DNA from: Linnemannia elongata
Taxonomy: Eukaryota > Mortierellomycota > Mortierellomycetes > Mortierellales > Mortierellaceae
DNA length: 64,000 nucleotides
Direction of reading: 5' to 3'
Assembly (NCBI GenBank): GCA_036320915.1
Contig: JAXBDG010000004.1
Coordinates: forward strand, 1,178,001 to 1,242,000
Positions within the stretch are counted from its first letter, which is position 1, and each line of letters starts with the position of its first letter. This document shows positions 10,317-49,921 of the stretch, piece after piece. The notes under the pieces are model-generated. The model worked only from the letters and a program-made list of their open reading frames with translations, had not been told where the DNA came from and did not search any database. A program made the position numbers and the translations under genes.

Positions 10317-11413
10317 TTCAAACTCGATTGGGTGCTTCCCATTGTGGACTTGTGGCACGTTGCTTACCCTTGCATTCGATTGTTTTTTGCACCTTCGTCT
10401 ACAAAAAACAACAATCGGACACGCAATCCTTCGTATGGCTGCCTAAATGCAATCAAAAAACTGAATTACTGTTCAACCGTCTCGGTCGTTCTCTTTTCAC
10501 AAGACAAGACAACTGAGGGAGGTGGGGCCAACAGCCAGGACTTGCCTCCTCTCTCCTTTATGTCATAATTATCTGCTCTGCGTTGAGATGGGGGGGGGGG
10601 GGGGGGGTTGACACCCCCGCTTCTTTTTCGTGCACTTCGACCCCTCGCTTGAACCACATTTTCGTGCATACAGCCCTCGGCATGAAAACGCAAAACGAAA
10701 AAAAAAAAAAAAAAGTCCAAACGAGGGGAATAAGGGGGTTGCAAGGTACCATGGTTGGTCTTATGTTGTCTTATGTTCATTTTTGCTTTCTTTATGGCCT
10801 AGGTCATGAAAACAGTCGCCTTGCTGCCCATCTCACAACAGAACGTACTCAGGGTAACATCTCCTTCTCGCTTCCTTGGTCTTTCTTTCGCGCATAAATT
10901 TTTAAGAGCCTGATAGAAAATGAACTCGACACCTGGGCCAACTGAAAGCGAAAGGGAGATGTCCTGTAAGGGTCTGACCACGAATCTAGATCCCCCCGAT
11001 TGGACAGATCACAACGCTAAACAGCTGTTCCTGGATTCTGCTTCGCCATTGTTACCCGTTGCTGGGTGTCCTTATAACGAAAGCAACTCTTACTTTAGGG
11101 TGTTGAACCAGGAAGTTTTCAAGCAACCTGATCGTAAGCATAGCGCCTCGCCCTTCCTTCAGAACGGATATCTCTCACTCACCCACCTCTCATTCACTTC
11201 AGTGCAATGACAGACATGAAAAATAAAAAGACGCCTATATGACTTCATTCGCCATCCACTGTCTGATGTTCACTGATGGTAAGGATGAGAGCTGGGACCC
11301 TCAGGAGCAAGAAAGCAAAAAAATGAGCGTGCATGAAAAAATAGCAATAGCCTGAACTGGCGAAGCCAAAAAAAAAATGAATGACCATAGCCTTTCAAAA
11401 GCAAAAGATCAAG
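9189..11413. other. Long intergenic region with homopolymer tracts
   Basis: About 2.2 kb without a gene I can support. It holds a purine-rich leader (9190-9750) upstream of the FAD monooxygenase, a T run at about 10284-10315, a G run of about 18 nt at 10591-10608 and an A run near 10700. A 96-codon open frame at 10920-11210 begins MNSTPGPTESERE but shows no domain or splice context, so I leave it uncalled. The last 200 nt are the 3' flank of a tRNA-Leu gene. Confidence 0.5.
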
Positions 11414-11496
11414 TGAAGAGAGTGGGATTTGAACCCACGCCTACGAATAGACCGCGGCCTTAACGCGGCGCCTTAGACCAACTCGGCCATCTCTCC
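11414..11496 (-). tRNA. tRNA-Leu (anticodon AAG), copy 1
   Basis: Cloverleaf read on the minus strand: acceptor stem GGAGAGA pairs with TCTCTTC, discriminator A. The D-arm contains the A-box TGGCCGAGTTGG. Anticodon stem CCGCG/CGCGG encloses loop TTAAGGC, giving anticodon AAG. A long class-II variable arm (TCTATTCGTAGGC) precedes the T-arm GTGGG-TTCAAAT-CCCAC (B-box). T runs just beyond the 3' end (CTTTTGCTTTTG on the tRNA strand) fit pol III termination. Two further copies with the same sequence lie at 38566 and 43121. Confidence 0.93.
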
Positions 11497-11597
11497 AACT
11501 GTTAGATGGGTGTATTCTAAGTTCTATTTGAATACATAGCACTTTAAGTCCGCCACCAATCTCGAGACGCCACCAACTCTTCTGACCCCTTAATAAA

Positions 11598-12062
11598 AAT
11601 AGCCAGGCAGTAGCCGTGCACAGCGGTAGTCCTGCGGACCTGGAAACCCCGATGCTCCGCGACTATCGCGTGGAAGCAGACCCAGGGCATCTCTGTGAGG
11701 GATAAGACATCCAAATACACAGGTCCTCGTGGTGACTGGAGTCAAGGATATCTTTACATCACGCGTGATGGTTTCTGCCCCTGTAGCGCTTCGCTAGCCA
11801 CACATGAGGATCGGACATGCCCTAGAGCGACCAAGAATCCACGAGCAGCTGATGAACGGCTGTTAGACAGCTTGTTAGGAAGGAGGAAGTTATCATTAAT
11901 GAAGAGGATGGGAAGAAGTCCCTTTATTCGTATCTAGTTTTATTTTCTTCCATTATTGCTGTGAAGAGCAGCGACAATTGTTGCACAGAGCCAGGTCCCG
12001 GACCGGACTGAGACTGGGGGATGGAGCTTTGAAGAGTTTGGTCTGTAGCTCCTTTCCTTAAA
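11598..12062 (+). mobile_element. 5'-truncated LINE (non-LTR retrotransposon) 3' fragment, copy a
   Basis: A coding remnant (about 11698-11937) ends with TGPRGDWSQGYLYITRDGF, a Cys/His-containing stretch, then the closing SPFIRI and stop. It closely matches the fragments at 43337-44014 and 44830-45065 and is followed by a conserved untranslated tail up to about 12062, after which similarity to copy d stops. No reverse transcriptase domain is present. Calling it a LINE rests on the poly(A)-tailed, 5'-truncated sister copies and on the LINE-like C-terminal motif in copy c. It lies about 100 nt upstream of tRNA-Leu copy 1 and points away from it. Confidence 0.6.
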
Positions 12063-12621: not shown

Positions 12622-14555
12622 TTACTGGAAACTGGCGTGTTGTTGCTGGTGCTGCTGGTGTTGCTCTTGAAGTTGTTGCTGTTGCTCCTGGAGTTGCTTT
12701 TGCTGTTGCTCCAAGAGTTGCTGGTCGTTTTCCTTCAACAAGGCTGAGACCTGTTGAACAACTTCGTCGCTGTTATCGACGGCCGAGGATCCAACACTGG
12801 CAGCGACACTTGCAGCCACGCTGTTCAAGCTTGCCTGGAGTTCTAGCAGTCCCTTGCCACCATCCTCTGCCAAGACCCGCTGGACAATACTGGATGACAA
12901 AGGCATGTCCGACATGGGCACCGAGATGGCAATTGATCCGCCAACGAGGCCCTGGGTCTGGAGTGCGACTGCGTTAGATGCCAAGAGGAGTTGTTGGACA
13001 CTGTCACTGTCGAGATGATCCTGTGTTGTTGCCTGATGCTGGTGTTGCTGCGCAAGCTGCTGCTGGGAAGACGCCACATCCTTCATGACCTGCTCAATGG
13101 CATCGTCCTTGATGCCAGCAAAGGCGTGGGTGAGCGGCGAGGCAGGATCGTCGCTGCCGCCCCTGCTGCTGTCAAGAGTTCCGTCTTGATCCATGCTCTT
13201 TTTGTAGTAGTGACTCCAGTAACGGACTTGCGCCTGTGTGATTCCCAACGATGGGTTTTGCTCCTTGAGATTGTCGTACAGCGTCCGGGGGGCAAGCGAT
13301 AGGTTCTCTTTGACATAAACACGGACGTGATCAGGACACTTGCGGTTGTCGTACTTTTCATGCTTTTTGTGGTTGTAGACAACTCGGACATGGTCGACAT
13401 TCTGGTAAAAGGTCATCGTGAGATTCCCTTTGCAAGGGAAGTAAGCCTTGGTCGAAGGACGGTTGCGCTTCCTGCTCTGAGTCTTGGGTGCTGGCGGTGC
13501 ACGTCGATCCTCTCGTTGCGAGCATCCGTAGATCTTGAGTCGAGTCTTAGCCTGTGTTTCATCGTTCGTCCTCGAGTGGCTACAGGATTGAGGACATAGC
13601 AGCAATTGGTCAGCTGATTTTTTTTTTCCAGACATGACATATCCAGCGACCTCGCAAAAAGATATCCAACTTACGAGAACCAGTAACCAGTGGACTCATA
13701 AACCTGAGCAGCAATCAATGCGCCCCGGTTCTTCAGTGTCTCCGGGTCCATCTCAACGGATCCTCCCAAGCGGATCATGACATCTAGACTTGAAGCCTTA
13801 TCTGGTGTGTTCTCAAGCTCCTTGAGCTTCTCTCCAAACTCTTCCATGGAGATTGTCGGCCGGTTAGGGATAGTAGGAGGCTTAACAACCTTTTTCGAGT
13901 TCACCCTAGACTTGAGACGGCAGGCATTGCAGGATTTGAAGATTCGGTTGGTCGTTGGGCAGGTGTAGTGTTCGACAGAGAGGTTTCGACAGCAGCCTAG
14001 ACAGAAGATATCATCCGGGTTGAAGCGCTTGGTCGACACAAAAGGAGTCCTGGTGGATGAAGAAGACGAGGACGACGAAGAAGATGCAGAAGTCGATGTC
14101 GAAGTGGCGGTGGTCAAGGTCGAAAGTTTTGATGCAACAGGGATAGGAGCAGAGACCTGCTGTGATGGAGATGGAACAGGTGACAAGGCTGCGTGGGTGA
14201 CGACTGGTGCTGGAGAGACGGGCGCAGAGAGTGCCGCTGGGCTGCTGATTGCCGAAGGGATCAGCTGCTGGATGATATCCGCGGGAACTGCCTGGGTCAT
14301 CGCCGCAGCAGCATCGGCAACCGTCTTTATCGTATCCGTTTGCACACCGCTGACGGCGGCGGCGGCGGCGGCGGCCACAGCAGCAGCAGCAGCAGCAGCA
14401 GCGGCTTCCTCTTGTTGTTGATGGGCGACGGCAGCCTCGATGAGAGCACGGACGGTATTTTCGTCACTGAGAACGGAGACTACGGGATCATTCTCGTCCA
14501 GGAGGGTTGATGGAGTTGTGTTGGGCTGAGATGAGGAACTCGGCGGCAAGGACAT
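12622..14555 (-). CDS. Probable transcription factor with Cys-rich and GCM/WRKY/FAR1-like DNA-binding segments (two exons)
   Basis: Exon 1 runs from ATG at 14555 (MSLPPSSSSQPN) to about 13678 and exon 2 from 13580 to the stop at 12622, with clear GTAAGT donor and TGTAG acceptor. The N-terminal part is low complexity (Ala and Ser runs). Around 13900-14010 is a cysteine cluster CLGCCRNLSVEHYTCP...FKSCNACR, a possible zinc site. Exon 2 begins basic and contains YFPCKGNLTMTFYQN with a downstream YNHKKHEKYDNRKCPDHVR. This Cys/His spacing and the 'H-x-H...CP-hVR' ending resemble zinc-binding DNA-recognition domains of the GCM/WRKY/FAR1 group; the family is inferred, not certain. The C-terminus is a Gln-rich coiled region (QQQ repeats). 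The end of transposon unit 1 lies only 106 nt upstream of the start codon. Confidence 0.6.
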
Positions 14556-14651
14556 TTTGTAGATTGGCGGCGCACAGGAAATGCGAGGAAGGAGGATTCA
14601 GAATGAACATGGCAACGAGAAAAAACCTTTCGAGGAGCAGGAGAAGTGCCA

Positions 14652-14660
14652 CAAGCGCAA
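14652..14660. repeat. Left 9-bp direct repeat (candidate target-site duplication) of unit 1
   Basis: CAAGCGCAA occurs here and again at 20642-20650. The two copies abut the inferred ends of the unit at 14661 and 20641. A 9-bp duplication is typical of Mutator-like DNA transposons (established for MULEs); assignment to that group is inference. Confidence 0.65.
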
Positions 14661-14834
14661 GGTCACAGAACAATTGGCGCTTAAACTACGTCACCGGAGT
14701 GAGTAATCTCAGCGCCTCGGCTACGATGAAGTAGCCGAGCTCACGTGACCCCGCTCTGTGGAACATGCTTACAAGCATGTCTATCTAACTATGGATGCTA
14801 TAGTGCATTTTACAAAATGGTGAAACTCCTATGC
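14661..14834 (-). ncRNA. Candidate guide/omega-like RNA region in the 3' end of unit 1
   Basis: Between the stop codon (14835) and the unit's 3' terminus lies a strongly foldable segment. At 14690-14749 three nested stems pair: GTCAC (14690) with GTGAC (14745), GTGAG (14699) with CTCAC (14740), and CTCGGCTAC (14716-14724) with GTAGCCGAG (14731-14739) around a GATGAA loop. A second hairpin ACATGCT/AGCATGT is near 14763-14780. The block ACGTCACCGGAGTG at 14688-14701 is identical in unit 2 and sits 27 nt from the terminus in both. In TnpB and Fanzor systems the guide RNA scaffold is made from this end of the element (known). That this is one is inference. Confidence 0.5.
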
Positions 14835-17800
14835 TCACGTCGCTTTCTTCTTGGTACGGCTGGATGAAGAGTCGAGTGCATCAGCCGTAGGATCGATCGA
14901 AGCGGCGCGTCTCTTCTTGGCTGATGCTGCTCCTCCGTCACCACCACCGCCTGCTCCATCCTCACTGTTGTCCATAGCCTCATCTGATGTCCCGCCTGCT
15001 TCCCCTCCACCAACACCATTACCGCCACCAGAAGCATCCATCCACGGGTAAGATCCGTCTTGACGCCGAGGTTGGAGATAGAGGGGCCGCTGCTGCTGGA
15101 TTAGATGGTCTTTGATGGCGTTGTTCATGTTCATGGAGGCCATAACATCACGCTGTCGGAAGCGTTTGCACGTCCTGCAGTAGAGGGTCCGCCAGTCCGA
15201 CGTCGCGCAAACAAAGCCATGGCAGTCTGGGCATCTTTTGGAGGTGAAATATTCGTTAACTCCAATGACTAGATAGCCCAATGATCGAGTCTAAGTCAAG
15301 AAAACAAAAAATAGAGGCATTATTAGCATGTTACTATAAAGGAATCACTTTGCAGAACCGTTGCAAAGATTGTCCTACCAGACTGACGAAAAACGCCTCG
15401 AAACTGCCGTTGAGCGCTGGTGGGCCATGTATAGCAGAAAACTTGGCCAGGCCAATTGCGATCACAATATGCTGGTGCGGCATTCTTGGCCTTCTGACGG
15501 ATCCACCCACCATATTGAGCAAACCCTCCGCAACCTTGTAAAACTCCTCCTTCTTGCAGACGTCGGCGTCCCATTTATGCTTCCAAAAGTTGGTTTTGTT
15601 GTAAAAGCCGTACAGGTCGCTTTCAAAAGCCCGGCGCGTTGCAACGTACTCGCAAAACGAAGCACCCTCTCCCTTGAGCGGTGGAAGGGCCGACTCGAGA
15701 TCGTGAATAGCCCTGCCGGTAGACGGCCCCGTGGTGTTCTCCTTTCGTTCCTCAAGCCAGTTGGCAAAGCTGTCTGTCGGGCGAGATACGGCCTTGCGCT
15801 TGACCACAAGATCAAAGTACTGAGTCATCTGAGGCTGCTTGGCCAGCTTGCGCGCTTTCTGTCTCTTTCTCTGCCGCCTCCGATCACCGGGCTTCAGCTT
15901 GGCACGCCTTTTCTTGTTCCTCTTCTTCTTTTGATCGCCCTCTTTGCCGAGGGGTCGCTTCAATGTTGCAGGGGTCTGGCCAGGTGGGAGCGAGACGGTG
16001 GCACCGACAATGCAGGAGGTGCCCAAATCGAGCGACAGCACCGCGATCTGACTTGGATCTGCCGCCAACAGGCTCTCCACATCGGCTGCTGTAGAGAAGA
16101 CATTGCGGGCCTCGGTCAAGTAACTCCCTGTGCCACCGATGGTGGTAAGGAGTGGGTTGGGCAACCTATCCTCGGGAACACGACGGTACCGAACACACTG
16201 AAGTTCCTTTAACTTGAACGCTAGCAGTTGAAGCAGACGGCCATTCGTCCGGATCGAGCCCTTGAGGACATAACCCTTCCCGCGCCACTCCTTAGGGTCA
16301 AACGTCTCGGTTCGTAAACATTTGAGGTGTTCCCGGAGACCTTCCTTGCCGTCCTTGCCGTCCACATCCATGACTGTTGTCGCCTTGCGGTAGCCCTTGT
16401 CGTGCTTGTCTGGCGGGAGACCGACATCCGATAGGAAGGTGATGACGAGGCGGCCAGGCGTCGTTCTGGCTAGCCATTCCAGAGCATCTGCTTGCGAGGG
16501 AACTATGGCTGGATCCTGAAAGTAGCGATCCTCGCTCATCATACGCCGAATTTTGTCCTTAAGGGTTGGCCAGGACCAGAACAGCGGGAGCAACTGTCGC
16601 TCAGAGAAGGTAACGTAGCGAGGTGCCAGGGGTGAAAGGGGTGCAATTTGTCTCGATCTGCCGCTGGCCTTATTCAGAATCATATAGTTCTCAATAGCAG
16701 GCAGCTTGGTGTCGATCTTGGGAAGTACCGTGCCAGTTTGGCCATCCGCTTGTGAGTTGATCTATTGCAAAGGGAAAGGAGACATTAGTTTGAAATAGGT
16801 TTTAATGAACGCTACTCTCTTCGTATTTCATTAGCAACAAAGCTTAGACAGGCAGCTTCACATTACCTTTGTTTCAAGGGCGACCGAGCCGTTGCGATAC
16901 ATCATCTTCATAGAACAATAAAGTTGCTTGGTGGTCGACTCGAGCAATCCGGTAGTTTGATAGGAGATGTTGCGTGGAGGAACAGCAGGCAACGTGATGC
17001 CCAGGGAGGTGGCACGTGCAAGCAGCTGGCCAACTTGCCGCTCGGCAACCGTCTTGAACTTGGTCTTGCGGGAGTAGATATGCGCCAGAAGAATCTGATA
17101 GAAGGCAATAAAGGGCTTGTCCATTGCGGACGGCTCGGCATCTTCGTCGCCTTCATCCCCCGAGTCTTCATCACCATCATCCTCCGCGCCTACCTCGCCT
17201 TCCTCGCCTACCTCGCCTTCCTCGCCTTCCTCGCCTTCTCCGCCTTCCCCACCTTTATCCTTGGTGGAAGTGCCGGCGAAACTGCTGCTGATTGCTTGAG
17301 AGACCTGGTTGGGTTGGGGCGCCACACGGACCTTAGACTCGACGCCGGGGCACAAAGAGGACAGGATAGTTCGATCGTCCACGGTCAAACCACGCTCAAA
17401 GACGGTCTCGATGAGCGCGCCCAAATACTCCTGTGCGTGTCTCTTCGTCATATGAGCTTGCTCAACAACCTCCAGAATACAGGCAGAGACCTCTTGCTGC
17501 TGATGTTGCTGTTGCTGCTCAGACGAGACCAGCTGACTGGTGTCGACAGTGACTGCTGCCGCTGCCCGCTTGCTGTTGGCGTTGACCGTGCCGACGGGAA
17601 GGGAGACAAGGGGATGCTCGTACACCATAGCATTGATCAGTTGAGCCTTGTTCATCTCGCTGATCTTAAGCGGCGGCTTCCTCTTGGCTAGCTCATTTTC
17701 TCTTTTGAGTTGCCGGCCCTCACGCTGCCGTTTCTTCTTCGCCTTAATCTTCCTGGCCTCAGCTATCGACTCCCGGTATCGTGCCTCTTGCTGCGCCGTG

Positions 17801-19289
17801 TAGGGCTTTTATTGGTATTGCCTGCATATTGATGGCTGCTCGTGTTGCTGCGGTTCTGCACGTGCCTTGTACGAGTGTCGCGGCCGGTGCACCTGTTGCG
17901 AGACTCCAGCCTGGTCAGGTGGCCGATCGATCACTCGGTGCCATCTAAATCCCCTGTGCTTGCCCTGCCGATTGGGTGTGGCATTGCTAGAGCGTGTCGA
18001 AGAGTGCAATAATAGGCAAACAACGTGTTAGACTGTTTGAAAGTGATGGGAAAGCCATGCCAAGGGTTGTATGAGAGAATCAGAGAATCCAAAAGCGCCT
18101 AATGTGTTACCTCTTGCTGCTCGAGTTCCCTTGGCGCTTCTGTTCCTTGGCATTGGCATGCTGGTCCTTGACCAATTTGTACTGCTGACAGAGCAGTTCG
18201 TAGGACAGGAAAGATGCAGGGGAGGCCGTTAAAGGCATCACTGACTGAGAGGACGTCGATGGAACAGAGGATACGTCCGCGGGAACAGCAATCTCCTGGG
18301 TCATTGTAGTAAACACGAGAACAGACGCCGTGAAGTCGATGCCTTCCTGATTGCTGCAGATCACGCTTGGACTCTCAAGATAGTCTTTCACCAAGGACGA
18401 CACGTCTAATAGAGAAACGGGTTAAAAAAGGAGTCATGATAAGTTTGGGCATATTCACAAAGAATAAAGGCGATATGGGCATGCTGGGAAGTTATTCGTT
18501 CTTACCTGCATCGGGTAGATCCTTAATAATGCTGTAGTTGGTGGCAATCCCCATCGATGGGATGTTCTTGTTCTGGTCATTGCTCGAGACGCATGCCAGG
18601 GCTGTCAGCTTGGTGGTCGACAGTCGTATCTGCGTCAGCACCGCCTCTCTCCCATATTCTAGGACCCTGACGTCGTCCCACTTGCCCACAGGACGCCAGA
18701 GCGTTGCGACGGAATCATAAGCAAAGAAGTCCGAATCTTGAGATAGAACAATGTCTTTGGGTTGGCACTCTGCAGCGATGTCAATGTCGGCCTCGGTTCT
18801 GCACAGGTGCGCGTCGAGCTGTTGAGCCTGCAGAAAATCGACAAAGTCCTCCCGATCTTGGAGGGACCACTTGAATCCTCCACGGAGACCTGTCTCGACA
18901 TTTTTGAACATCTGCTTGGTGGGCGGCTTGTCTTGACTGACGCGGTTCCCGAGCATCTCAATGGCGACCTGGGCGTTCTTAAGAGCCTTGTTACGTTTCT
19001 CGTTTCGCTCGCGGTGAGTCTCCTTTTTCTCGAGAGCAGGGGCGCCGTCGACATAAAACACCATCCGCGAGGGGTTGCCGTATTTCCTGAGATGCTCAAA
19101 CAGGATAGCTTGCGCCATTGTCTTGTCGTTTGCATGCTTGGTGTAGATGTAGCGTATTTTGGTGAAGAAGGACAGAACATCCACGCGAATAATGGAGTCG
19201 TCAGGCAGGTGGTGGTGCATGGGGTGACGTAGTGTGGGATAATAACCCCTCTTCTTGCGGAGCCAAGGATAGAACCCTTTCAGTCCCAT
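14835..19289 (-). CDS. Fusion nuclease: FEN1/XPG-type PIN domain plus TnpB/Fanzor-like RuvC and zinc finger, copy 1
   Basis: Five exons with GT-AG borders: 19289-18506, 18405-18111, 17986-16867, 16761-15379 and 15290-14835 (phases 1,2,0,0; 1,345 codons). Residues 1-260 resemble FEN1/XPG nucleases: the start MGLKGFYPWL parallels MGIxGL. Acidic residues D37, D81, E166, D168, D185, D187 and D238 fall at FEN1-like spacing. A linker with an acidic Glu/Asp-Gly run follows, then a region with TFSERQLLPLFW and GSIRTNGRLLQLLAFKLKE. RuvC-I is VLSLDLGT (D about 978). A very basic stretch (about 1015-1050) could be nuclear targeting or nucleic-acid binding. The RuvC-II position has Gly, with E1207 in GVNEYFTSKRCPDC. 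The zinc finger uses C1214, C1217, C1232, C1235, and RuvC-III is QRDVMASMN (D1242). Exon 3 contains an in-frame TAA at 17811-17809 (codon 419) in the linker: decay, an unrecognised intron, or a boundary between two proteins. Confidence 0.72.
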
Positions 19290-19792
19290 GTTGGCTAGTG
19301 GTGGATGAGATGAGAGCTTGGGGGGTGTGTGGAATAGAGAAGAAGGAATAACGATAGAAAGTAAAGGCTAAGCAGTTGGGACGAAGGTTTTGTTAGTTTC
19401 TTAGTAAGTGCTCGTGCCCACCAGCCCTTAAAGGCATATCTAAGAGTTAATCAGTTGCGATATCAATCTAATGGACGGTGAGGAGAATAATATTTCACCG
19501 TATATCCTTTAAAGCACCGGGCAGAAGAACGAGAACAAGAGAGGTCAGACCGGGAAGTCGCAAACACCTTGGCGTTCGAGGCAAGCGAGGCCAAGCACAG
19601 ATCACTGCGGAAACAATACTTTATGAGATAAGAGCTCAAAAAAAGAGAAAGTGTACTCTCCAGTATATGCAAACTGTAGAAGTAGGACTTCAGCGCAATT
19701 AGCTTGAAGTCAACACAGTGGCTGCCGGCCATACATGTCAGTGAATAGAGTGATAAAAAACTCCAGCAAACGAATTGTCAAGGGGTCTTCTA

Positions 19793-20249
19793 GGCTCGAT
19801 TCCATCCCTCATCGAAGCGACTAATCCTTCTGTCCAAATCAGGGCTCTGACCGCCTTTATATATATGGTTAGACCTTGTCAATTATGAGAATTTTGTTAT
19901 ACAATCCACATGTAATTGACAAGGTCTAGCCATAAAACATAGAAGGCGGTCAGAGCCCTGGTCCAAATTAGGACAGATGGGCATTTGCTTCTCAGAGGGC
20001 TGGCGTCAAACTCATGGGTTGACTTATGATATGAGAAAATAGATTTCTTTCATCCAAAACCCGTGTAAATCCATTTAAGGGTTACTGCACCTATTTTTAT
20101 CTTATATTGCTCTAGCACGGACAGATTTCTATTTTCTCGTATCATAAGTCAACCCATGAGTTTGACGCCAGCCCTCTGAGAAGCAAATGCCCATCTGTCC
20201 TAATTTGGACAGAAGGATTAGTCGCTTCGATGAGGGATGGAATCGAGCC
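19793..20249. mobile_element. MITE A, long palindromic element flanked by TA
   Basis: Terminal arms GGCTCGATTCCATCCCTCAT (left, 19793) and its reverse complement (ending 20249) extend into a long inverted repeat. The inner arms at about 19969-20055 and 20125-20205 also pair. TA dinucleotides flank both ends (19791-19792, 20250-20251), as for Tc1/mariner-type non-autonomous elements. It carries MITE B inserted in its left arm. Confidence 0.8.
19840..19960. mobile_element. MITE B (hAT-like), nested in MITE A
   Basis: A 121-bp element with terminal inverted repeat CAGGGCTCTGACCGCC and an inner pairing of TTAGACCTTGTCAATT with its complement. It is bounded by an exact 8-bp direct repeat GTCCAAAT (19832-19839 and 19961-19968). 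An 8-bp duplication and a CAGGG terminus are typical of hAT transposons. Confidence 0.85.
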
Positions 20250-20251
20250 TA

Positions 20252-20524
20252 CACTCCTTTTCGCTGAAAAATCCACTTTTCATAGTAAATGTGGATCTTT
20301 TCCACTGAATTGATAATATAACGAGGCGTTATTCAGTCCATCTTATCTCTGCTTGGATTTACGGATCACAAACCGTCCTACCTCTTGTTCAGTCGCAAAC
20401 TATGCGAGGATATAAGATAATTCGACCGTCACAGAGGGTCTGAATAACGCCACGTTATATTATCAATTCAGTGGAAAAGATCCACATTTACTATGAAAAG
20501 TGGATTTTTCAGCGAAAAGGAGTG
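20252..20524. mobile_element. MITE C (Tc1/mariner-like), adjacent to MITE A
   Basis: A 273-bp element with long arms starting CACTCCTTTTCGCTGAAAAA and ending in the reverse complement. TA flanks it at 20250-20251 and 20525-20526. The arms extend about 90 bp with few mismatches. It appears to have inserted into the TA at the right edge of MITE A. Confidence 0.85.
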
Positions 20525-20619
20525 TAGGGGTCTTCCTCAGAGGCAGAAAAAACACAGTGTCAATTGTCGATCCATATTAGGAAAGATCTCATACGTAGCT
20601 TCAGCCAATAAGAGAATTA

Positions 20620-20650
20620 TGGCGCCAATTGTCCTGGACCCCAAGCGCAA
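20620..20650. repeat. Right terminal inverted repeat and 9-bp direct repeat of unit 1
   Basis: TGGCGCCAATTGTCCTG at 20620-20636 is the inverse of the left terminus at 14666-14680 (one mismatch over CAGAACAATTGGCGC) and matches the right end of unit 2 at 49900-49916. It is followed by GACCC and then CAAGCGCAA at 20642-20650, the second copy of the flanking direct repeat. Confidence 0.7.
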
Positions 20651-20730
20651 CACATACGTCATCAGGTCTTCTTATTCACGTGACTAAATATTTATTTTGC
20701 CACCAATCGGGTCCTAAAAAAAGGCGACAC

Positions 20731-37521: not shown

Positions 37522-38215
37522 AACAAAAAAAAACATAATACAACTGTACAATATTTATTTCTATTCAGCGTTTGTGTGCGTATGAAAACAGACGATAAGG
37601 TATTTTAAGCTTTTTGGACCGGGTCGGTTTAGAATGTCCCCTGGGTGAACCCGATCAGTGGGTGGGTGGCCAGGTTTCTGACAAATTCCACTGCTAATTC
37701 CTGGACCCTTTCATCAGAACCCATTTTTTTTTTTTGCTTGTTTAGCCTCAGGCTATACGTTTTGTTATACATTGCTCGCTTTTCCTCAAGTTCGTGTATG
37801 AGAAAGACAAAAAAAAAAAGTTCTCCTAGACTCTTAAGAAGAGCGAAAAATAGAAAAGAAAAACTGGCACATTTTTTTTTTTGCGCCTACGACTTTGTTT
37901 GCGTTCTCTTTTGTTCCCTGTTCACTTTTTTGTCGAGCATTCAGGCAACGTGATTAGCAAGCATTAGAACCGTTTGTGGAGAGTGGTTAGAAGCATTTGG
38001 TTGCTCTACCTATAAGTAAAACCCAGCTTAAAGAGAACACAAAACCAATTACACGCGAAGAAAGTGGATTCTTCCCATCCTCTCCAATATTGATGACCCC
38101 CTCCTTCCCAACAAACTTTCCAGCAGCCGCTCGTCAGTAACGCATGAGTCCTCGGCCGCTCCAAGGCAAGCCTTATCCTCATGTATGGCTAGCTAAGCGC
38201 CACCCGCTTGGGGGG
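37522..38215. other. 3' flank and spacer, no gene seen
   Basis: 3' region of the C2H2 factor with T and A runs (37727, 37810, 37871). Nothing in it resembles a coding region. It ends at an 8-nt G run (38210-38217) that abuts the reversed LINE tail. Confidence 0.5.
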
Positions 38216-38385
38216 GGTTATACACAATTTTATTTCTCAGACAAACAGACCAAAAGAGGTAAAAGGGACTACAGACCAAACTCTTTAGTGCGCCATCCTC
38301 CAGTCACAGTCCGGTCCGGAACCTGGCTCTACCCAACAATTATCGCTACTCTTCACAGCAACAGCAATAACGGAAGAAAATAAAA
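38216..38385 (-). mobile_element. LINE 3' tail fragment, copy b
   Basis: Read on the minus strand this contains the tail CAACAATTGTTGGGTAGAGCC-like segment, the conserved 'GGTTCCGGACCGGACTGTGACTG' region and the terminal AGAAATAAAATTGTGTATAA, matching 45065-45240. It stops at a G/C run (CCCCCCC on the element strand) rather than a poly(A). It is upstream of tRNA-Leu copy 2 and oriented away from it, as in the other two tRNA loci. Confidence 0.6.
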
Positions 38386-38565
38386 CAAGATACGAATGAA
38401 GGAGTTTCTTCCCATCCACTTTGGTTCTCACCTAGATCGGAACAGGACTACTGTCTGACTAGTTGTATTAAGGGGCCCTTAAAGTTGGTGGCGTCTCAAG
38501 ATTGGTGGCGGACTCTTAAGATACTATGTATTAAATAGAACTTAGAATATATCCCTCCATCAGTT

Positions 38566-38648
38566 GGAGAGATGGCCGAGTTGGTCTAAGGCGCCGCGTT
38601 AAGGCCGCGGTCTATTCGTAGGCGTGGGTTCAAATCCCACTCTCTTCA
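38566..38648 (+). tRNA. tRNA-Leu (anticodon AAG), copy 2
   Basis: Same 83-nt gene as at 11414 and 43121: acceptor GGAGAGA/TCTCTTC, anticodon loop TTAAGGC (AAG), long variable arm, T-arm GTGGG/CCCAC. Followed by CTTTTGCTTTTG, a likely pol III terminator. Two GTTGGTGGCG-type boxes lie about 60-90 nt upstream (38478-38510), as in the other copies. Confidence 0.93.
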
Positions 38649-38770
38649 CTATATCTTTTGCTTTTGACTGGTTCACCACAGGAACACTGCATTTTTGTTC
38701 GTGTTCTAGGTCCTTTGTTATTTTTTTTTTTTTTCTCTCGTCACCCTTCCACCCTCAGTGACTTCATACC

Positions 38771-43061: not shown

Positions 43062-43120
43062 AATATCTTCGTCCTCAACATGCGGGCACATTCGCAGCGA
43101 GACAAAAGCAAAAGATTTAG

Positions 43121-43203
43121 TGAAGAGAGTGGGATTTGAACCCACGCCTACGAATAGACCGCGGCCTTAACGCGGCGCCTTAGACCAACTCGGCCATCTC
43201 TCC
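43121..43203 (-). tRNA. tRNA-Leu (anticodon AAG), copy 3
   Basis: Same 83-nt sequence as the genes at 11414 and 38566, with the same cloverleaf and AAG anticodon. Its 3' flank (CAAAAGCAAAAGAT on the plus strand) and upstream GCGCCACCAA boxes (43250-43280) are also conserved. A run of LINE-family insertions begins about 100 nt upstream. Confidence 0.93.
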
Positions 43204-43300
43204 AACGGATGGAGATGTTGAGATCTTTAGGAAATGAAGTACAGCACGACGCCACCAAACGAAGAAGCGCCACCAACCAGGGCGTGATCATAACCGTCTA

Positions 43301-43334
<34 letters not shown>

Positions 43335-44208
43335 CCATGGACAAGATCGATGAGTGGGGCATCAAGGCAACAGACAGTTACAACGCGGCCAAGAGGCGAG
43401 AGCACGAGAGAGCAGAGGCGAGTGGTCGTCAAGTACCGCCCCCAGTGCCAGTTCCTTGGCGCTGTCCATCTGATGAGGAGCATGTCCGTGGGTTCTCTTC
43501 TATCGGTGGCGCTCAATCGGTTTATCGGGGCCTGCCGGTCCCCGATCGCGACCTGGATCCAAAGTGGCACGTCTCGGATCTACTGCGAGGCATCACCCCC
43601 AAGAGCATGCTGTCTGAGTGGTCGTCAGTCTTCCGATCCCCAAAGTCGATTGCACAGACGGTCCTGCACAAGTTTGTTGGCTACCTGGAGGCACAGGCCT
43701 CGGAGCTGATCTGGAAACCTCGGTGTTCGGAGACAATTGCATGGGAGCAGGCGCAAGGCATCACTACAAAAGACAAGACATCCAAGTACACTGGCCCTCG
43801 AGGAGATTGGAGCAACGGTTATGGCTATATCACCCGAGCTGGTTTTTGTCCCTGCGGCGCTTCGCTAGCCGCACATGAGGATGGGCATTGTCCGGGCCCG
43901 TCTTTGGATCCCATCGCTGCAGATGCACGTTTGTTAGAGAGTCAATTAGGAAGGAGGCGGTTGTCGTTGATGGAGAGGATGGGGAGGATCCCCTTCATGA
44001 GGGTGTGCGAGTAGTTTATTTTCTTCCGTCCCAGCCTGAGAAGGCGAGTGATTGTTGCGCTGAGCCTGCCGAGCTTTGGACTCAGGGACAGCGACTAGGT
44101 CTATGGCTACTGGGAGAGTTCATTTGATAGTGCCCTTTTTATTCCTTTGAATGCCTCCTGGAGTTGTTAACTAGAGAAATAAATCGCAAACAAAAAAAAA
44201 AAAAAAGT
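43335..44208 (+). mobile_element. LINE 3' portion with poly(A) tail, copy c (225-codon remnant)
   Basis: An open frame at 43337-44014 encodes the most complete C-terminal LINE remnant here: QTVLHKFVGYLEAQASELIW, KPRC, then TIAWEQAQGITTKDKTSKYT and a Cys/His segment GFCPCGASLAAHEDGHCPG. The W-x(2)-RC...WE motif is usual downstream of the reverse transcriptase in non-LTR elements. The untranslated tail ends AGAGAAATAAATCGCAAAC plus poly(A) (44190-44206). A T run (43304-43334) precedes the 5' edge. GTCTACCATTTTT occurs on both sides, a target-site duplication. Confidence 0.65.
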
Positions 44209-44284
44209 CTACCATTTTTTTTTTTTTTTTTTTTTTTTAGAGAAATAAATCGCAAACAAAAAAAAAAAGTCTACCATTTTTTTT
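44209..44284 (+). mobile_element. Very short LINE tail insertion at the same target
   Basis: GTCTACCA plus a T run is followed by only about 30 nt of LINE terminus (AGAGAAATAAATCGCAAAC), an A run and then GTCTACCATTTTT again at 44271. This reads as an extremely 5'-truncated insertion into the already duplicated target. Confidence 0.7.
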
Positions 44285-44303
44285 CCAAGTACACTGGTCC
44301 TCG

Positions 44304-44747
44304 AGGGCGGGCGAGCCCACCATAATGGTAAAGCTTCCCCCTCTCAGCGCGAGGGTCGTGGGTTCAGACCTACGAAGACACGCTCAATTAGGATTTGACG
44401 GTATTGCGCTAGCCTCCCCCTGTCCAGGAGGCCTGAGATGAAATAATTCTCAGACGCACAAAGTGCATGGACAGAGTGAGTATGCCCACTATATGGCTAC
44501 GTTAACCTGGTGATGAGCCAGTCTGAATGCCGTGTGGAGTCAGCCAAATCGGCGGACCGCTTAGACAAACCTTTCAGTGTTCTAGTACATTCTGTCGGGT
44601 AACCGGCTTCCTGCACAAGCATACTAAAATGCTTCTGTGCAAAGTACGCGCACCTAGTTTAGACATTAGATAACAAATATCGTGTACTGCACAAGATAGG
44701 CCAATTGTCAGAGGCAATTCTAGGAATAAAAAAAAAAAAAAAAAAAA
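44304..44747 (+). mobile_element. Candidate tRNA-derived SINE inserted in a LINE fragment
   Basis: After 22 nt of LINE coding sequence (44285-44306) comes a tRNA-like head with GAGCCCACCATAATGG (A-box-like). Anticodon-like stem CCCTC/GAGGG surrounds TCAGCGC, and GTGGGTTCAGACCTAC resembles a B-box T-arm with a 6-nt loop. An unrelated body of about 330 nt ends in a 21-nt A run at 44727-44747. LINE terminal sequence (GTTGTTAACTAGAGAAATAA) resumes directly after it. Confidence 0.5.
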
Positions 44748-44824
44748 AAAGTTGTTAACTAGAGAAATAAATCGCAAACAAAAAAAAAAAAGTCTACCAT
44801 TTTTTTAAAACCTTTCTTTCCCAA

Positions 44825-45260
44825 TTCCCTCCAAGACATCCAAATACACAGGTCCTCGTGGTGACTGGAGTCAAGGATATGGCTACATCACGCGCGATGG
44901 TTTCTGCCCGTGTGGCGCTTCGCTAGCCACACATGAGGATCGGACATGCCCTGGAGCGACCAAGAATCCACGAGCAGCTGATGAACGGCTGTTAGACAGC
45001 TTGTTGGGAAGAAGGAGGTTAACATTGATGGAGAGGATGGGAAGAATCCCCTTCATCCGTATATAGTTTTATTTTCTTCCGTTATTGCTGTGAGGAGCAG
45101 CGACAATTGTTGCGCAGAGCCAGGTCCCGGACCGGACTGTGACTGACGGATGGTTCACTGAAGAGTTTGGTCTGTAGTCCCCTTTACTTCCAAATGCCTC
45201 CTTTGTTCTGTTTGTCAGAGAAATAAAATTGTGTACGAAAAAAAAAAAAAAAAAAAAATA
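44825..45260 (+). mobile_element. LINE 3' fragment with poly(A) tail, copy d
   Basis: Begins within the coding end (AAGACATCCAAATACACAGG), encodes the closing residues up to the stop near 45066, and continues through the complete untranslated tail to AGAGAAATAAAATTGTGTACG plus poly(A) (45239-45258). Its sequence is closer to copies a and b than to copy c, so at least two LINE subfamilies meet here. Its poly(A) directly abuts the truncated 5' end of unit 2. Confidence 0.65.
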
Positions 45261-45481
45261 AATCTTATTGGCTGAAGCTATGCATGAAATATTTCCTAAT
45301 ATGGATCGGCAGTTACTGTCAATTGACACTAAATTACATTGAATATCGGCACAATCATTTGACCCAGTAGTCTATCTTCATCCACTGCTTTTGAACTCTT
45401 TTTCGACCTACTTTTACTTTCTACTTCCCAAGTCCTTTCACGACACATCCATTACTTCCATCACATGAACTCTCCTTCATA

Positions 45482-48400
45482 ATGGGACTATTCGACTGGT
45501 ACCCTTTCATTCGACGTAAGGGCTACACACCTGTCCAACTTTACCGATCAATACTCGCGAGCATCATCACCAACGGTCGACGGCGACTGGATGTTCTTGG
45601 GTCGTGCTATAACGTCATCAGGAGCTCTTACTCCAACATGTAGCAAGACGCCGCCCACCGCAGTCTGGAGAAGGAGGTCAGTCGGTTCGGAACGGCGTTA
45701 GACATGACTCTTTACATTGATGGGGACCCGGCCATGGAGAAGAGTGAGACCGCAGCCGAGCGCCAAAAACGGCGAGAGAAAGCTCTGGAGCAAACAGCAA
45801 CAAGCTTAACCACTCTCGAATCACGCATCGACAACAGTCAACGTCTGAGAAAACGCCATTTTGCCGACGTCCGCTCAGGTTTAGCCTCCTCCTTCTACTG
45901 GTCGATGGAGAGCCGGAGGAGCTTTGCGGATTATATGACGGAACGAGGCTGGACAGTCCAGGTTGTGGCTACAGAGGCTGACTTGGCAATCGCTATCGAC
46001 GCAAACCCAGGGGACATTATCATCTCTCGTGATTCAGATATGCTCGCCTATGGATCTATCGTGACTTTGTGGCGCCCCGTTTCAAACGACATGATCCTGG
46101 TCTACTCCATCCCTGACCTCCTCTTGGCCCTCGGCATCACCCGCGCTCAGCTCACCGCACTTGCAGTAGTTTCCAAAAACGATTACAACAAGAATATTTG
46201 GTCTCTTGGTCCAGCCACGAACTTCTCTATTATCAAGTCCATCAACAGCATGGGTAATGATCGAATATGTTTCTATTTCCAGGTCTGAATGTTCTTGCCG
46301 TCTTTACATTGAGAACTAACTGCGCTTACTGTCTTTTCTTTTATTATATAGACCCTAAGGAGGTGGTGCACAGCTATCTGGCGGACACTCGAGTCATCTC
46401 AAAAAACAAGGACAAGAAGGAATTTGAAGACTCTATTCGCGTGTTTATCGACAAGCGTCAAACAAAACTTAACAGAGTCGATTCCACATCAGATGCTCAG
46501 ATCCTGTATGAGCAACTGCATCTTCACTTCAAGGATCTATGTACCCGGCATAACGAGCTCAAACGCATCCGTATACAGGAGCTGCATCCGAGGTATTTTC
46601 ACTGATAATTTGCAAAGCTTATTTTGATGAAGCAATCATGTGAATTATTTCTCATTACATTTGATTAATAATATAGAGAAACCAGTGACGAGATTATACG
46701 TCTGCGAGTGCCAAGATCCTGGAATCGCTACCGTACTGTGGAATCGCCAAGACATATCTCCAAGGCCTCTGGAACCCTTTCAGGGCCTCAACCCGGCATC
46801 CCCCAGGAACCTACTTTTACCTCTTTGGGTCAGGAAAACTTTGGCCATCCAGCACTGCCTAGGACACGAGTACCCCGACACAGCCAACGGTTTTCTTTCA
46901 AGCGATACCAGGGGAGCGTGAGCCATGAGCCTCCTGCAAGGGCCAAGCAACTCGTGTGGAAGGCTCCCAAGGTGATGTCTCACTCCAACAGTAACCCCCC
47001 CACCACTGACACCACGGACAGCAAGGGCAAGCAGAAGTCGGACAAGGCACCATCAGTTGCTGGCCTGAAGGCATCCAAGATGACTAACAAGCAGAGGCTC
47101 ACTAAGTCACTCGGCTGGCATCACCCCACAGTTTCTCTTGAGGTCGGAACGTTGGAGGCTAACACTAGGCGAGTGTCGTCGCTTTCGCCGGAGCTGCAGC
47201 AGGAGGTGGCGAAATGTCTGAAGGAGGGTTCCCAGCTGGCAGTGGACATCAAGAGGAAGGCCCAACGCCTTATTGGTCGCTTTCTGGAGACGTTGCGGAC
47301 TCGTATTGAGGATGCGGTGGCTGAGGCTAGGAGAAAGAAAAATGGCGAGGCTTTGTTGGAGTCTGATCGGTTAAAGGTGAGACGCGAGGCGGTATCGGAT
47401 GATGAGCGAGTGGTTCTGGATTATCTCTGCGAGAGGGTCAAGCCGAAGGTTGACGGAGCTAATGGACTCGACGGTGGCCAGAAGGATGCTGGCCAATCGA
47501 ATCTTGATGAGGAGACCGACAAATGTGTGAAGTTCCTTGAGACCTTTCTGACGTACCTATACTCGGAGAATCTTCCCAACAAGAACTCTACAATTGGTAA
47601 AGCAGTCGACAAGTTTATCGGGATCTTGGTCGACCTTGAACTATTCGATGCCTCTCGGAATCGAGGCGAGATCAATGTCAGTATGTCGTTCACGCCGAGC
47701 ATGCTGGTGCGGTCCACGGCTAGTCAGCTTTCTGTTGAACTCAAGAAGCATTATCGTCATGGAACCCATTTGTTGTACGATAAGGTAATGATATGATTCG
47801 TATTGACGATTACTCTACTAGAGGTCATCATTACAGGCAAACATATAACTGATGCTTATCTTTTTTATTGTAGGTGTGTACTCTGAAGGACAAGGGGCAA
47901 GTTAAGGCATATATCGACTTCAACATTCAGGAAAACATATCAGCAGCGGAAAATTTCATCGCTCTCAACGACATGCATCCAAACAAGTGGCGGATCGTAC
48001 CCCTCACCTCGTCACAGCAGGGATTTGTTACTTTTTCAGAGAGAGAACTGGCTACCTTCTTTTGGAAGCGAGACTCGTTGAGGCAGAGGCTGGTGGAGTT
48101 GGCTTCATTGGACCATGACAACCCCGCCACTGTTACTTCAACAAATGACCTGGAAACCTGGATCGGTGGGAAGGAGCCGGGATTTATAATCAAGAATTTC
48201 GTCAGCGACATCGATCTCACCGGCCTGTCGAACCGACAGAGGCGCAAAACTGGACACCGCGCCGCAATCAATCTTCGGTCGTTGAGTGAGATTCAGGATC
48301 ACCTTCAATTTGTTGAGCAGACGAAGCCCAAGGACTATCACCAAAAGGGCTACATACCCCATGGATCACTACGAACGGATGGATTTAGACTCCAGGTCTT

Positions 48401-49810
48401 AGCGTTTAAGCTTCGAGAACGTCAAGATGCGCGGTTCAGGAGATTACCCGAGGATGATCTCCCTTCAAGGCTGACTACCACGGTTGCCGGGTCCAACTAT
48501 TACCTCTCTGAAATCCGCAACGTCATTCAGTCCAAGGAGGACATCGCCAAGTTGTGGCCAGGAAAGAACGTAGATGACATGAAGATCGTTACCTTGGACG
48601 GCGGTCAAGTTTGCGTGGTCGGTGGCTTTGCGTATTTGCCTAAGGATCTGGACGATGAGTGCAAGGGCAAGGAGAAAGCAACTGGGGGCTTGTGCATGGA
48701 GGGTATCGTTTTGTCTTGTCAGGAGGCAGCAGATGAACTGATGACCAACCCATTTCCAGTGCCAGATCTGGTCTCGACTCCCGTTCATGACCCAGTAACG
48801 GATCCGCGTGGCGACTCATCCCAGCCTCCCTTCTACAATCTGGCTGTTAAGCAGAAGGCTATCTACCAGCCAGTATTTCGACATCGTAGGTGGCTCGAGT
48901 GCGAGAAGGGGGTGACTCCTGAAGGTGAAGAGGAGTCTGTTGCGGATCTTGAGTCCCGTTTGCCACCCCTGAGAGGACAGTCAGGAAGCGTTATGAACTA
49001 TGTGGAGGAGTTGGAGCTGGTTGAGACACGTCTGAAGAAGTTCTATGCTGGGGATGACAATCGTTACAAGAAGCATGCGTGGGACTTGGAGAGGGCCAAG
49101 CAAGCAGAATATCAGGCCCTTGCCGAGAGGTTGCTGAATCTGGTTGGAGGAAGTCTTGGTCGACGAGTCGAAGACAATGAGGATAAGGATCCCATTTTGT
49201 TTGGAGTTGGCTTGGGCCAGTTTTCCACCAACTCCAAGCTTTCGACACTGCATTCCACATTTCTCTCGTACTTTGTCCAAACGGTAAGCCTTTGTCATCA
49301 AAGTCGTTGGAAACATCGCTGATATAATTCAAGTGTTATAAACTAATGTACTCATTGACTCTCAATGTTTAGGTGCGCTCCCTAGGCTATGTCGTTGTCG
49401 GTATTAACGAATACTACACTTCGAAGAAGTGCCCCCGCTGTACCGAGTTCATTGCGCAAGTGACCCTTCGGAGTTTTTATTGCTACTCGTGCAAGCAGTA
49501 CTTTCATCGTGACACGATGGCTGCTCAGAACATGTGCGAGATTGTTCTACACCGGCTCAAGACCTTCGAGAGGCCCAAGCACCTGCAGCCGCTTGCAGCA
49601 GATGGATCATACCCATGGATGGCGAGTTCCAGTACAAGTTCAAGCAACATGGCAGCAAGCAGTACCACGGCGGCAAGCAGTACGGCGACAAGCAGCACCA
49701 CGGCAGCAAGCAGCAGCAGGTCTTCCAGTTGCGCCCCGTCACTTCGCAAGAGGGCTTCCACAGTTTCCAGTCAGGAAAAGGGCAGGAGGGGCAAATCGAC
49801 CCGAGCTTAG
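45482..49810 (+). pseudogene. Fusion nuclease: FEN1/XPG-type PIN domain plus Fanzor/TnpB-like RuvC, copy 2 (one nonsense codon)
   Basis: Exons 45482-46253, 46352-46592, 46677-47784, 47874-49283 and 49373-49810: same number, order and phases (1,2,0,0) as copy 1; 1,322 codons. The PIN part starts MGLFDWYPFIRRKGYTPVQL and keeps the acidic motifs RRLDVL, LYIDGDPAMEK, TEADLAIAID, IISRDSDMLAYGS and SKNDYNKNI. The linker holds RLTKSLGWHHPTVSLEVGTL, aligned to copy 1. The RuvC half has GSLRTDGFRLQVLAFKLRER, RuvC-I IVTLDGGQVCVVGG (D about 949), a Gly at RuvC-II (ILFGVGLGQFS), GINEYYTSKKCPRC (E1190), YCYSCKQYFHRDTMAAQN (D1224) and a Ser/Ala-rich tail. An in-frame TAG at 45641-45643 (codon 54) interrupts the PIN domain. 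Initiation downstream (ATG 45704) could still give the RuvC half. The active-site residues are otherwise kept, so decay may be recent. Confidence 0.7.
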
Positions 49811-49921
49811 ACTAGATTTTTACGCGTGTGTGAAACCACGCATTAGTGCTGGATTGTGGGGATTAGTTCCACGATGACGCCACTCCGGTGACGTCATTTT
49901 GGCGCCAATTGTCCTGCAGCC
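49811..49921 (+). ncRNA. Candidate guide/omega-like RNA region in the 3' end of unit 2
   Basis: From the stop to the unit terminus. Hairpins: GCGTG/CACGC near 49822-49840, and an imperfect stem ATGACG.CCAC / GGTG.CGTCAT at 49874-49897. CACTCCGGTGACGT (49881-49894) is identical to the unit 1 block and lies 27 nt from the end in both. As in unit 1, this is the position where TnpB/Fanzor scaffolds lie. Transcription and processing are not shown by sequence. Confidence 0.45.

Follow-up and report, generated by a model that had tools for sequence, protein, structure and literature searches.

A transposon-borne gene of Linnemannia elongata joining a FEN1/XPG-type nuclease domain to a TnpB/Fanzor-type nuclease domain

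Do a FEN1/XPG-type 5′ nuclease and a TnpB/Fanzor-type RuvC nuclease stand together in a single gene of a fungal transposon, and if so, what might such a protein do for the element that carries it? The question is raised by a stretch of 64,000 nucleotides from the fungus Linnemannia elongata (positions 1,178,001 to 1,242,000 of contig JAXBDG010000004.1, assembly GCA_036320915.1), here called the window, in whose coordinates the features below are given. In our numbering the contigs of this assembly (G000; 51 Mb, 32 contigs) are C1–C32, and the window is C27:1178001-1242000. The coding sequence in question runs on the minus strand from the ATG at 19289 to the end of the stop codon at 14835, in five exons separated by four GT-AG introns. 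Exon 1 (18506..19289) encodes a FEN1/XPG/Rad2-type domain, exon 2 (18111..18405) a linker, exon 3 (16867..17986) the middle region, exon 4 (15379..16761) the RuvC half with D978 (codon 16027-16029), and exon 5 (14835..15290) the alternative glutamate E1207 (codon 15252-15254), the C4 zinc ribbon, the RuvC-III residue D1242 (codon 15147-15149) and the stop. The residues named in an earlier note on this DNA, which had proposed the fusion from the letters alone, are found at the positions given there once the four introns are removed, namely D37, D81, E166, D168, D185, D187 and D238 in the first domain and D978, E1207, C1214/C1217/C1232/C1235 and D1242 in the second. The proteins of the family are about 1,322-1,361 residues long and consist of the FEN1/XPG/Rad2-type 5′ nuclease domain (1-262), the linker, and the TnpB/Fanzor-type RuvC nuclease (~470-1268, the lower limit being set by eye).

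The start of exon 3 at 17986 and the end of exon 4 at 15379 were set by aligning 11 close copies, the window copy included. An exon 3 start at 17808 was discarded, as the comparison of copies placed the start at 17986, with a stop codon of the window copy falling inside the exon, and donors at 15349 and 15335 for exon 4 were discarded in favour of 15379, which gives a GT-AG intron and keeps the reading frame open in each of the two groups. The stop, at codon 419 (17809..17811, minus strand), is in frame, lies between the two halves and occupies a position that is open in other copies; the window copy is thus a pseudogene, others being intact.

A stop between the halves is also what speaks for the view that the fusion is an artefact, that is, two adjacent genes or a join made by gene prediction alone, and the other copies in the genome bear directly on it. 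Searching the genome with exon 1 gave 39 matches, 11 at 89-100% identity and the remainder at 23-65%, and searching with the zinc ribbon (the query being a hand-made blend) gave 62. Under a pairing rule that placed both parts on the same strand with the FEN1-type part upstream of the ribbon by 0.5-6.5 kb, 35 of the 39 FEN1-type matches paired with 34 distinct ribbon loci, with the halves in the same order and 2.9-3.4 kb apart in all pairs except one (4.3 kb); 28 ribbon matches, many of them weak, were left without a FEN1-type partner. With the four introns removed, the frame was open over both halves in 10 of 20 modelled copies, which fall into two clades. In clade A, these are 4 of 11 (L011, L012, L014 and L016); the frame of L018 ends prematurely by four codons, the window copy (WIN) and L017 have one internal stop each, and L009, L010, L013 and L015 are frame-shifted. 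In clade B, they are 6 of 9 (L020-L024 and L028, with an altered last stretch in L022), the nine including a second window copy, which has a stop at codon 54, as well as L026 and L027, which were not resolved with the transferred splice sites. The four introns, in phases 1, 2, 0 and 0, are common to both clades, the FEN1 parts of which are only ~40% identical.

The same architecture is present in other Mortierella-type fungi, where the earlier note had proposed to look for it. The database proteins considered, 143 in number, were the union of three protein searches (15, 22 and the best 120 of 135 matches). Among the matches listed, 22 matched both family profiles at ≤1e-5, in some cases with just a portion of the FEN1-type region covered; 6 matched the FEN1-type profile only and 115 the RuvC profile only, many being fragments on short contigs. 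By name, the two-profile proteins come from Linnemannia, Dissophora, Mortierella, Entomortierella, Haplosporangium and Podila, and one RuvC-half fragment (P0088) is labelled Apophysomyces. The halves are thus joined in gene models made by independent groups in other species, and against these models, the open frames and the near-constant spacing at 34 loci, an artefact of adjacency or prediction is hardly credible. Judged from the copies and relatives compared, the fusion of the FEN1/XPG-type and TnpB/Fanzor-type halves in one gene is real, far beyond chance; the claim of a single gene holds for the family, and the copy on which it was first based is a broken one.

The ratios of nonsynonymous to synonymous substitution (dN/dS) between the window copy and L014 were 0.126 for the FEN1 part, 0.259 for the middle region and 0.165 for the RuvC half, and those of the window copy against L011 and against L016 were much like these. 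The comparison of L014 with L017 was noisy, with 0.72 for the RuvC part on 13 changes. Among L020-L024, protein identity (98.7-99.8%) was higher than DNA identity (97.2-98.8%). By these measures, both halves are under purifying selection.

The likeness of the N-terminus to the FEN1/XPG type is clearest at the level of the family. A seven-sequence family profile matched the solved structures of RAD2 (4q0w, E 5.1e-8) and XPG (6tux, 3.7e-7), and FEN1 weakly, with the alignment to the Rad2/XPG structures covering mostly residues 75-258 and the acidic positions aligned; the window sequence alone reached only E 0.042 against the same structures. Pfam XPG_I gave 14.1 bits on the window copy, below the cut-off of 24.9, and matched 5 of 13 relatives at E≤0.01, at best 2e-6; PF00867 is present in the precomputed annotation of P0008 and P0012. 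The alignment of this domain held 27 rows (the window copy, 21 other genome copies and 5 database proteins), excluding gene models from which a stretch of the domain is missing (e.g. P0002, P0004, P0005 and P0009) and P0013 and P0015. All seven acidic positions were kept in 26 of these rows, the exception being P0007, a fragment with Y for D168, and Gly2 (MG start) was kept in all 23 rows reaching that position. FEN1/XPG-type nucleases act on 5′ flaps, gaps and overhang-like ends.

For the C-terminal half, exon 5 matched Pfam Cas12f1-like_TNB (PF07282) at 1.6e-9. NF040570 guided_TnpB was matched at 4.2e-9, with a score of 36 bits where the curated cut-off is 100, and the structures matched by the RuvC half were the TnpB-like protein L79 (2.7e-4) and, at only 1.4, SpuFz1. 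The catalytic D-E-D and the C4 cysteines were kept in 17 of 18 rows (the window copy, 12 other genome copies and 5 database proteins, excluding P0001 and P0003, which are models without part of the region, and the frame-broken L015), with K for E in L025. The Fanzor/TnpB motif of Bao and Jurka, D-X(125,275)-[TS]-[TS]-X-X-C4-X(5,50)-RD (PMC3627910), was found in the window protein by pattern search, with 231 residues from D978 to T1209. In the Fanzor fingerprint given by Yoon et al. in 2023 (PMC10711439), RuvC1 reads DPG and an alternative glutamate precedes the zinc finger by six residues; the glutamate is present (E1207 and C1214 in the window protein, glutamate in 17 of 18 rows), but DPG was not found in any of the 18 rows, which have DLG, DGG or DAG. 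A candidate for the TDG motif of the Fanzor1 WED domain reads TDG in 13 rows, TNG in 4 and CDG in 1, at a plausible place in the sequence. By its motifs, the C-terminal half is of the TnpB superfamily and Fanzor-like, fitting the Bao-Jurka motif and not the strict fingerprint. The Fanzor/TnpB character put forward in the earlier note thus stands in this broader sense, and because RuvC1 is without DPG, we do not class the fusion protein as a strict Fanzor. As a separate observation, a diverged TnpB/Fanzor-type ribbon recurs near chromosome ends: 7 of the 28 partnerless ribbons lie within ~16 kb of contig ends (C2:8295, C3:12093, C6:6335 or L047, C32:6137, C9:1447283, C27:2931559 and C31:2724578), and the one on C6 matches Pfam TNB at 3.1e-9.

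That the gene is carried by a transposon, as had been proposed, is evident from the ends of its copies. The window element, a clade A copy with the gene on the minus strand, spans 14661..20642, where homology between copies stops at both sides; at ~6 kb it is larger than the gene. Its ends are inverted, with GGGTNCAGGACAATTGGCGCC on one side of the family's elements and GGCGCCAATTGTTCTGTGACC (clade A) or GGCGCCAATTGTCCTGCAGCC (clade B) on the other. The terminal inverted repeats (TIRs) of the window copy lie at 20622..20642 (left) and 14661..14680 (right), both in minus-strand orientation, and are flanked by an 8-bp target-site duplication, TTGCGCTT in minus-strand reading, at 20643..20650 by the left end and 14653..14660 by the right. 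Such duplications are perfect in 11 of 14 two-ended copies, the window copy being counted with an extra G assigned to the element, and imperfect in L018 (7/8), L013 (5/8) and L017 (4/8).

Beyond the left-side duplication lies a second regularity. In 13 of 14 complete copies, this duplication is preceded, after a gap of exactly 2 bp, by a TGACGTCAC-like word with a match at 6 or more of its 9 letters; the offset of the word is 10 in 12 copies and 11 in the window copy with its extra G, and L012 has no motif. In the window copy the word is TGACGTATG (20653..20661, minus strand). The chance of such a match at a random window position is 0.010; since the motif was derived from the same flanks, the count of matches is to be taken as descriptive, large as the effect is. 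Among 23 left-end matches, some of them outside the family, the core ACGT was present at -17 to -14 in 17, 17, 18 and 17, respectively, and in 20 right flanks of 40 bp, read on both strands, no stretch exceeded 6 of 9 motif matches. As the motif is on the left side only, insertion is asymmetric and oriented. As read from these flanks, the insertion site in this genome is TGACGTCAC-N2-(8-bp duplication), with the elements facing the same way. The word sits where a Fanzor target-adjacent motif (TAM) would be expected. For SpuFz1, the TAM of which is CATA, the two letters CA are conserved immediately beyond the left end of its elements (PMC10432273), a precedent for a conserved left-flank word as part of a TAM.

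The opposite end is structured. The last 92 nt of the element (14661..14752, minus strand) are predicted to fold as RNA with a z-score of -6.45, a stability reached by none of 200 shuffles; the structure is multi-branched and closed, and its last base is also that of the element. Another clade A right end gives -6.02; of the controls, the left end has a z-score of -0.08 and the stretch adjoining the right end one of -0.78. The right end is a predicted guide-RNA-like scaffold, the guide of which would start just outside the element; three known Fanzor1 guide RNAs have 75, 90 and 150 nt (PMC11423790). A hairpin, GATKAC...TCAC-UUCG/UCCG/CUCG-GTGA, is common to both clades. The same hairpins might instead be DNA structures, serving as binding sites or cruciform ends for transposition, with a RuvC half that lacks guided activity or acts on structure only. 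Such a role would accord with the presence of the TGACGT word of the target motif in the hairpin, as would be the case in a shared DNA-binding site, and with the thin covariation. Nevertheless, we regard it as unlikely, since the right end alone is structured and closes at the terminal base as an OMEGA-type scaffold should, loops of UUCG, UCCG and CUCG on a closing C-G pair are seen repeatedly, and the catalytic residues and zinc ribbon of the RuvC half are so widely kept.

Which enzyme moves the element was approached through its ends. Three end words, with ≤3 mismatches allowed, had 27, 15 and 13 places in the genome, and four places without the fusion gene (L029-L032) were inspected. Both L029 and L031 have family ends without the fusion gene, each enclosing a DDE_1 transposase gene (Pfam 2.2e-21 and 7.9e-17, respectively). 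As autonomous partners these were rejected, because the DDE_1 genes lie within their own inverted repeats (153 and 93 nt, each 99% complementary), which differ from the family ends, and are thus read as nested elements. At L030 (C5:1159501-1163500), a small host-like gene of 187 aa is duplicated in inverted orientation, with a stretch that matches the 27-place left-end pattern and otherwise no homology, and L032 had no transposase-like frame by eye, no family search being run on L030 or L032. No transposase belonging to the family ends was found among these four loci, the remaining end-word places not all having been inspected. Within the window element, five further open frames had no Pfam match, and neither these nor the four exon pieces had a MULE match. 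The genome does hold MULE genes (24 matches, 22 above the cut-off), but the element does not group with MuDR-type transposons, having no MULE match, duplications of 8 bp and not 9 bp, and a differing end. A MULE as helper through shared ends is not supported by the sole readable MULE end (GGGTTAATCTATTTGG...), which differs from the family ends; in a second MULE pair, similarity extended over nearly the whole stretch compared, so that the ends were not visible.

These results bear on the strongest alternative for the role of the protein, in which a non-autonomous element would be moved in trans by a DDE-type transposase recognising TGACGTCAC and the ends, and the fusion protein would have an accessory role, in regulation or retention, with its FEN1-type part acting on flaps or gaps in transposition or repair intermediates, with or without a guide RNA. 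TIRs with 8-bp duplications are hallmarks of DDE transposition, Rhizopus, Phycomyces and Mucor have Fanzor1-only elements that lack a transposase, their ends being MuDR-like and their duplications 9 bp long (PMC3627910), and MULE genes are at hand in the genome. The DDE_1 genes enclosed by L029 and L031 count somewhat for a helper in trans, although they look nested, and neither a transposase tied to the family ends at the inspected loci nor a matching MULE end was seen. Strict one-way orientation to a motif is, to our knowledge, unusual for a simple DDE transposase. On balance, we place this alternative a little short of an even chance.

In the view given in the discussion of PMC10432273, TnpB cuts the sister that lacks the element, which leads to the element being copied back in. 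The reading that we prefer for the fusion protein, with the odds about level, is that it would cut DNA under the guidance of an RNA and, through its own 5′ nuclease, help the element to be copied back; beyond the identification of the domains, every step of what follows is what we infer. The guide-RNA scaffold would be transcribed from the last ~90 nt of the element, at its right end, with the flanking host DNA as guide, and the RuvC half would cut the element-free allele beside the TGACGTCAC motif as TAM. The FEN1-type domain would then trim or resect the 5′-ended strands at the R-loop or the 5′ overhangs of the cut, and this trimming is proposed to disfavour simple end joining and so to favour copying of the element by homologous repair. 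The first insertion would probably be made by a transposase acting in trans. In line with such steps, SpuFz1 cleavage leaves 5′ overhangs (PMC10432273), and in work cited in PMC7286691 an R-loop was cut at one of its flanks by purified XPG.

Several observations weigh against a guided cutter with built-in end processing. For the clade B right end the fold is less pronounced (z -1.85, with 9 of 200 shuffles as stable), and the hairpin has only one compensatory (two-sided) pair change, with 402 of 500 shuffles reaching its pair count and 8 of 500 its score. The motif is 2 bp off the expected guide match and does not adjoin it, the RuvC1 DPG of strict Fanzors is missing, and the FEN1-type acids are altered or absent in some predicted relatives (G for D81 in P0013, N for D168 and V for D185 in P0015, and P0007). 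Furthermore, the motif and the right-end structure could instead serve a DNA-binding transposase. A more far-reaching version, in which the FEN1-RuvC protein would itself be the mobility machine, seems distinctly improbable: a right-end guide RNA, with TGACGTCAC-N2 as TAM, would direct the opening of the site, the FEN1-type part would process the strands, and the element would be copied in beside the motif in fixed orientation without a DDE transposase. If true, this would be an RNA-guided, motif-directed eukaryotic mobile element without a DDE transposase.

The service of Fanzors to their transposons is still an open question (PMC10432273, discussion). The natural weld of a FEN1/XPG-type 5′ nuclease to a cutter of the RNA-guided type suggests that break processing matters to the element, and it allows a direct genetic test, as either nuclease site can be inactivated. 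The fixed left-flank word is a concrete and cheap prediction of the TAM, and the structured right end a concrete one of the guide scaffold. If active, the protein would be a ready-made cutter-plus-end-processor for comparison with engineered fusions.

The window holds a second, divergent element of the family (clade B, 45263..49921, plus strand), which has lost its left terminus; its exons are 45482-46253, 46352-46592, 46677-47784, 47874-49283 and 49373-49810, with the in-frame stop of codon 54 at 45641-45643. The first element contains a repeat-rich nested insertion in its 5′ untranslated part (19761..20530, inverted repeats I5, I7 and I13), which is missing from the sister copies L009 and L010. 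Of this insertion, 122 bp are identical in L014, and to the eye there is a likeness between its inner arms and the 93-nt inverted repeat round the DDE_1 gene of L031. The latter locus (C1:4501801-4505800) bears TGACGTCAC at the family's offset, and L029 (C9:199751-207750) also holds a hAT gene. A host-like open frame (13671-14597, minus strand) has a possible start at 14555, ~106 bp from the right end of the first element, which seems to be placed in the upstream region of this frame, between the gene and a TGACGT word. The L014 element (around 1946; C31:23364) is inserted beside a stretch like the right end of another member, itself with TGACGT, and a diverged zinc ribbon lies just upstream. 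A dispersed repeat at 11395-12055, 38047-38667 and 43100-45190, in direct and inverted copies (D2, D15, I1-I4, I6 and I8), is unrelated to the fusion gene.

The earlier note had known of no description of the two nucleases joined in one protein, and none of a FEN1-Fanzor fusion was found in the literature as covered by titles and the starts of abstracts, a 2023 Fanzor survey in Science Advances, where prior notice is possible, lying outside that scope. New here are the one-way orientation of 13 of 14 complete elements beside the motif and the predicted guide-RNA-like fold of the right end. In Bao and Jurka's account (PMC3627910), the N-terminal halves of Fanzors are described only as highly variable, and one element encodes a GIY-YIG nuclease and Fanzor1 in two distinct genes. 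With the Rad2/XPG/FEN1 5′ structure-specific nucleases, the fungal protein shares the seven acids, the MG start and the profile match over residues 75-258, but it is strongly diverged, with XPG_I under the Pfam cut-off in the window copy, is fused to a TnpB-type half and is borne by a transposon. Academ transposons carry XPG-like nucleases, of which our literature search gave no description, and thus share with this element an XPG-type nuclease in a transposon; we know of no TnpB-type half in them. With TnpB of IS200/IS605 and IS607, the common features are the RuvC domain and C4 ribbon and, as inferred for the fungal element, the layout of a right-end scaffold and a left-flank motif; the fungal element differs in its alternative glutamate, FEN1 fusion, TIRs and 8-bp duplications, and in having no TnpA. 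A close likeness is also seen with Fanzor1, represented by SpuFz1 of Spizellomyces punctatus and PpFz1 of Parasitella parasitica, the latter with a FRI domain: the C-terminal order of D, alternative E, TS, C4 and RD is the same, as are the TIR elements without transposase in early fungi, the structured right end and, in SpuFz1, the word outside the left end. The fusion protein is, however, about 1,322-1,361 residues long, compared with 400-700 in Fanzor1 (PMC10432273), and it has an N-terminal FEN1/XPG domain and DLG, DGG or DAG in place of the DPG of RuvC1, while the duplications of its element are of 8 bp and stand at a distance of 2 bp from a motif of 9 bp.

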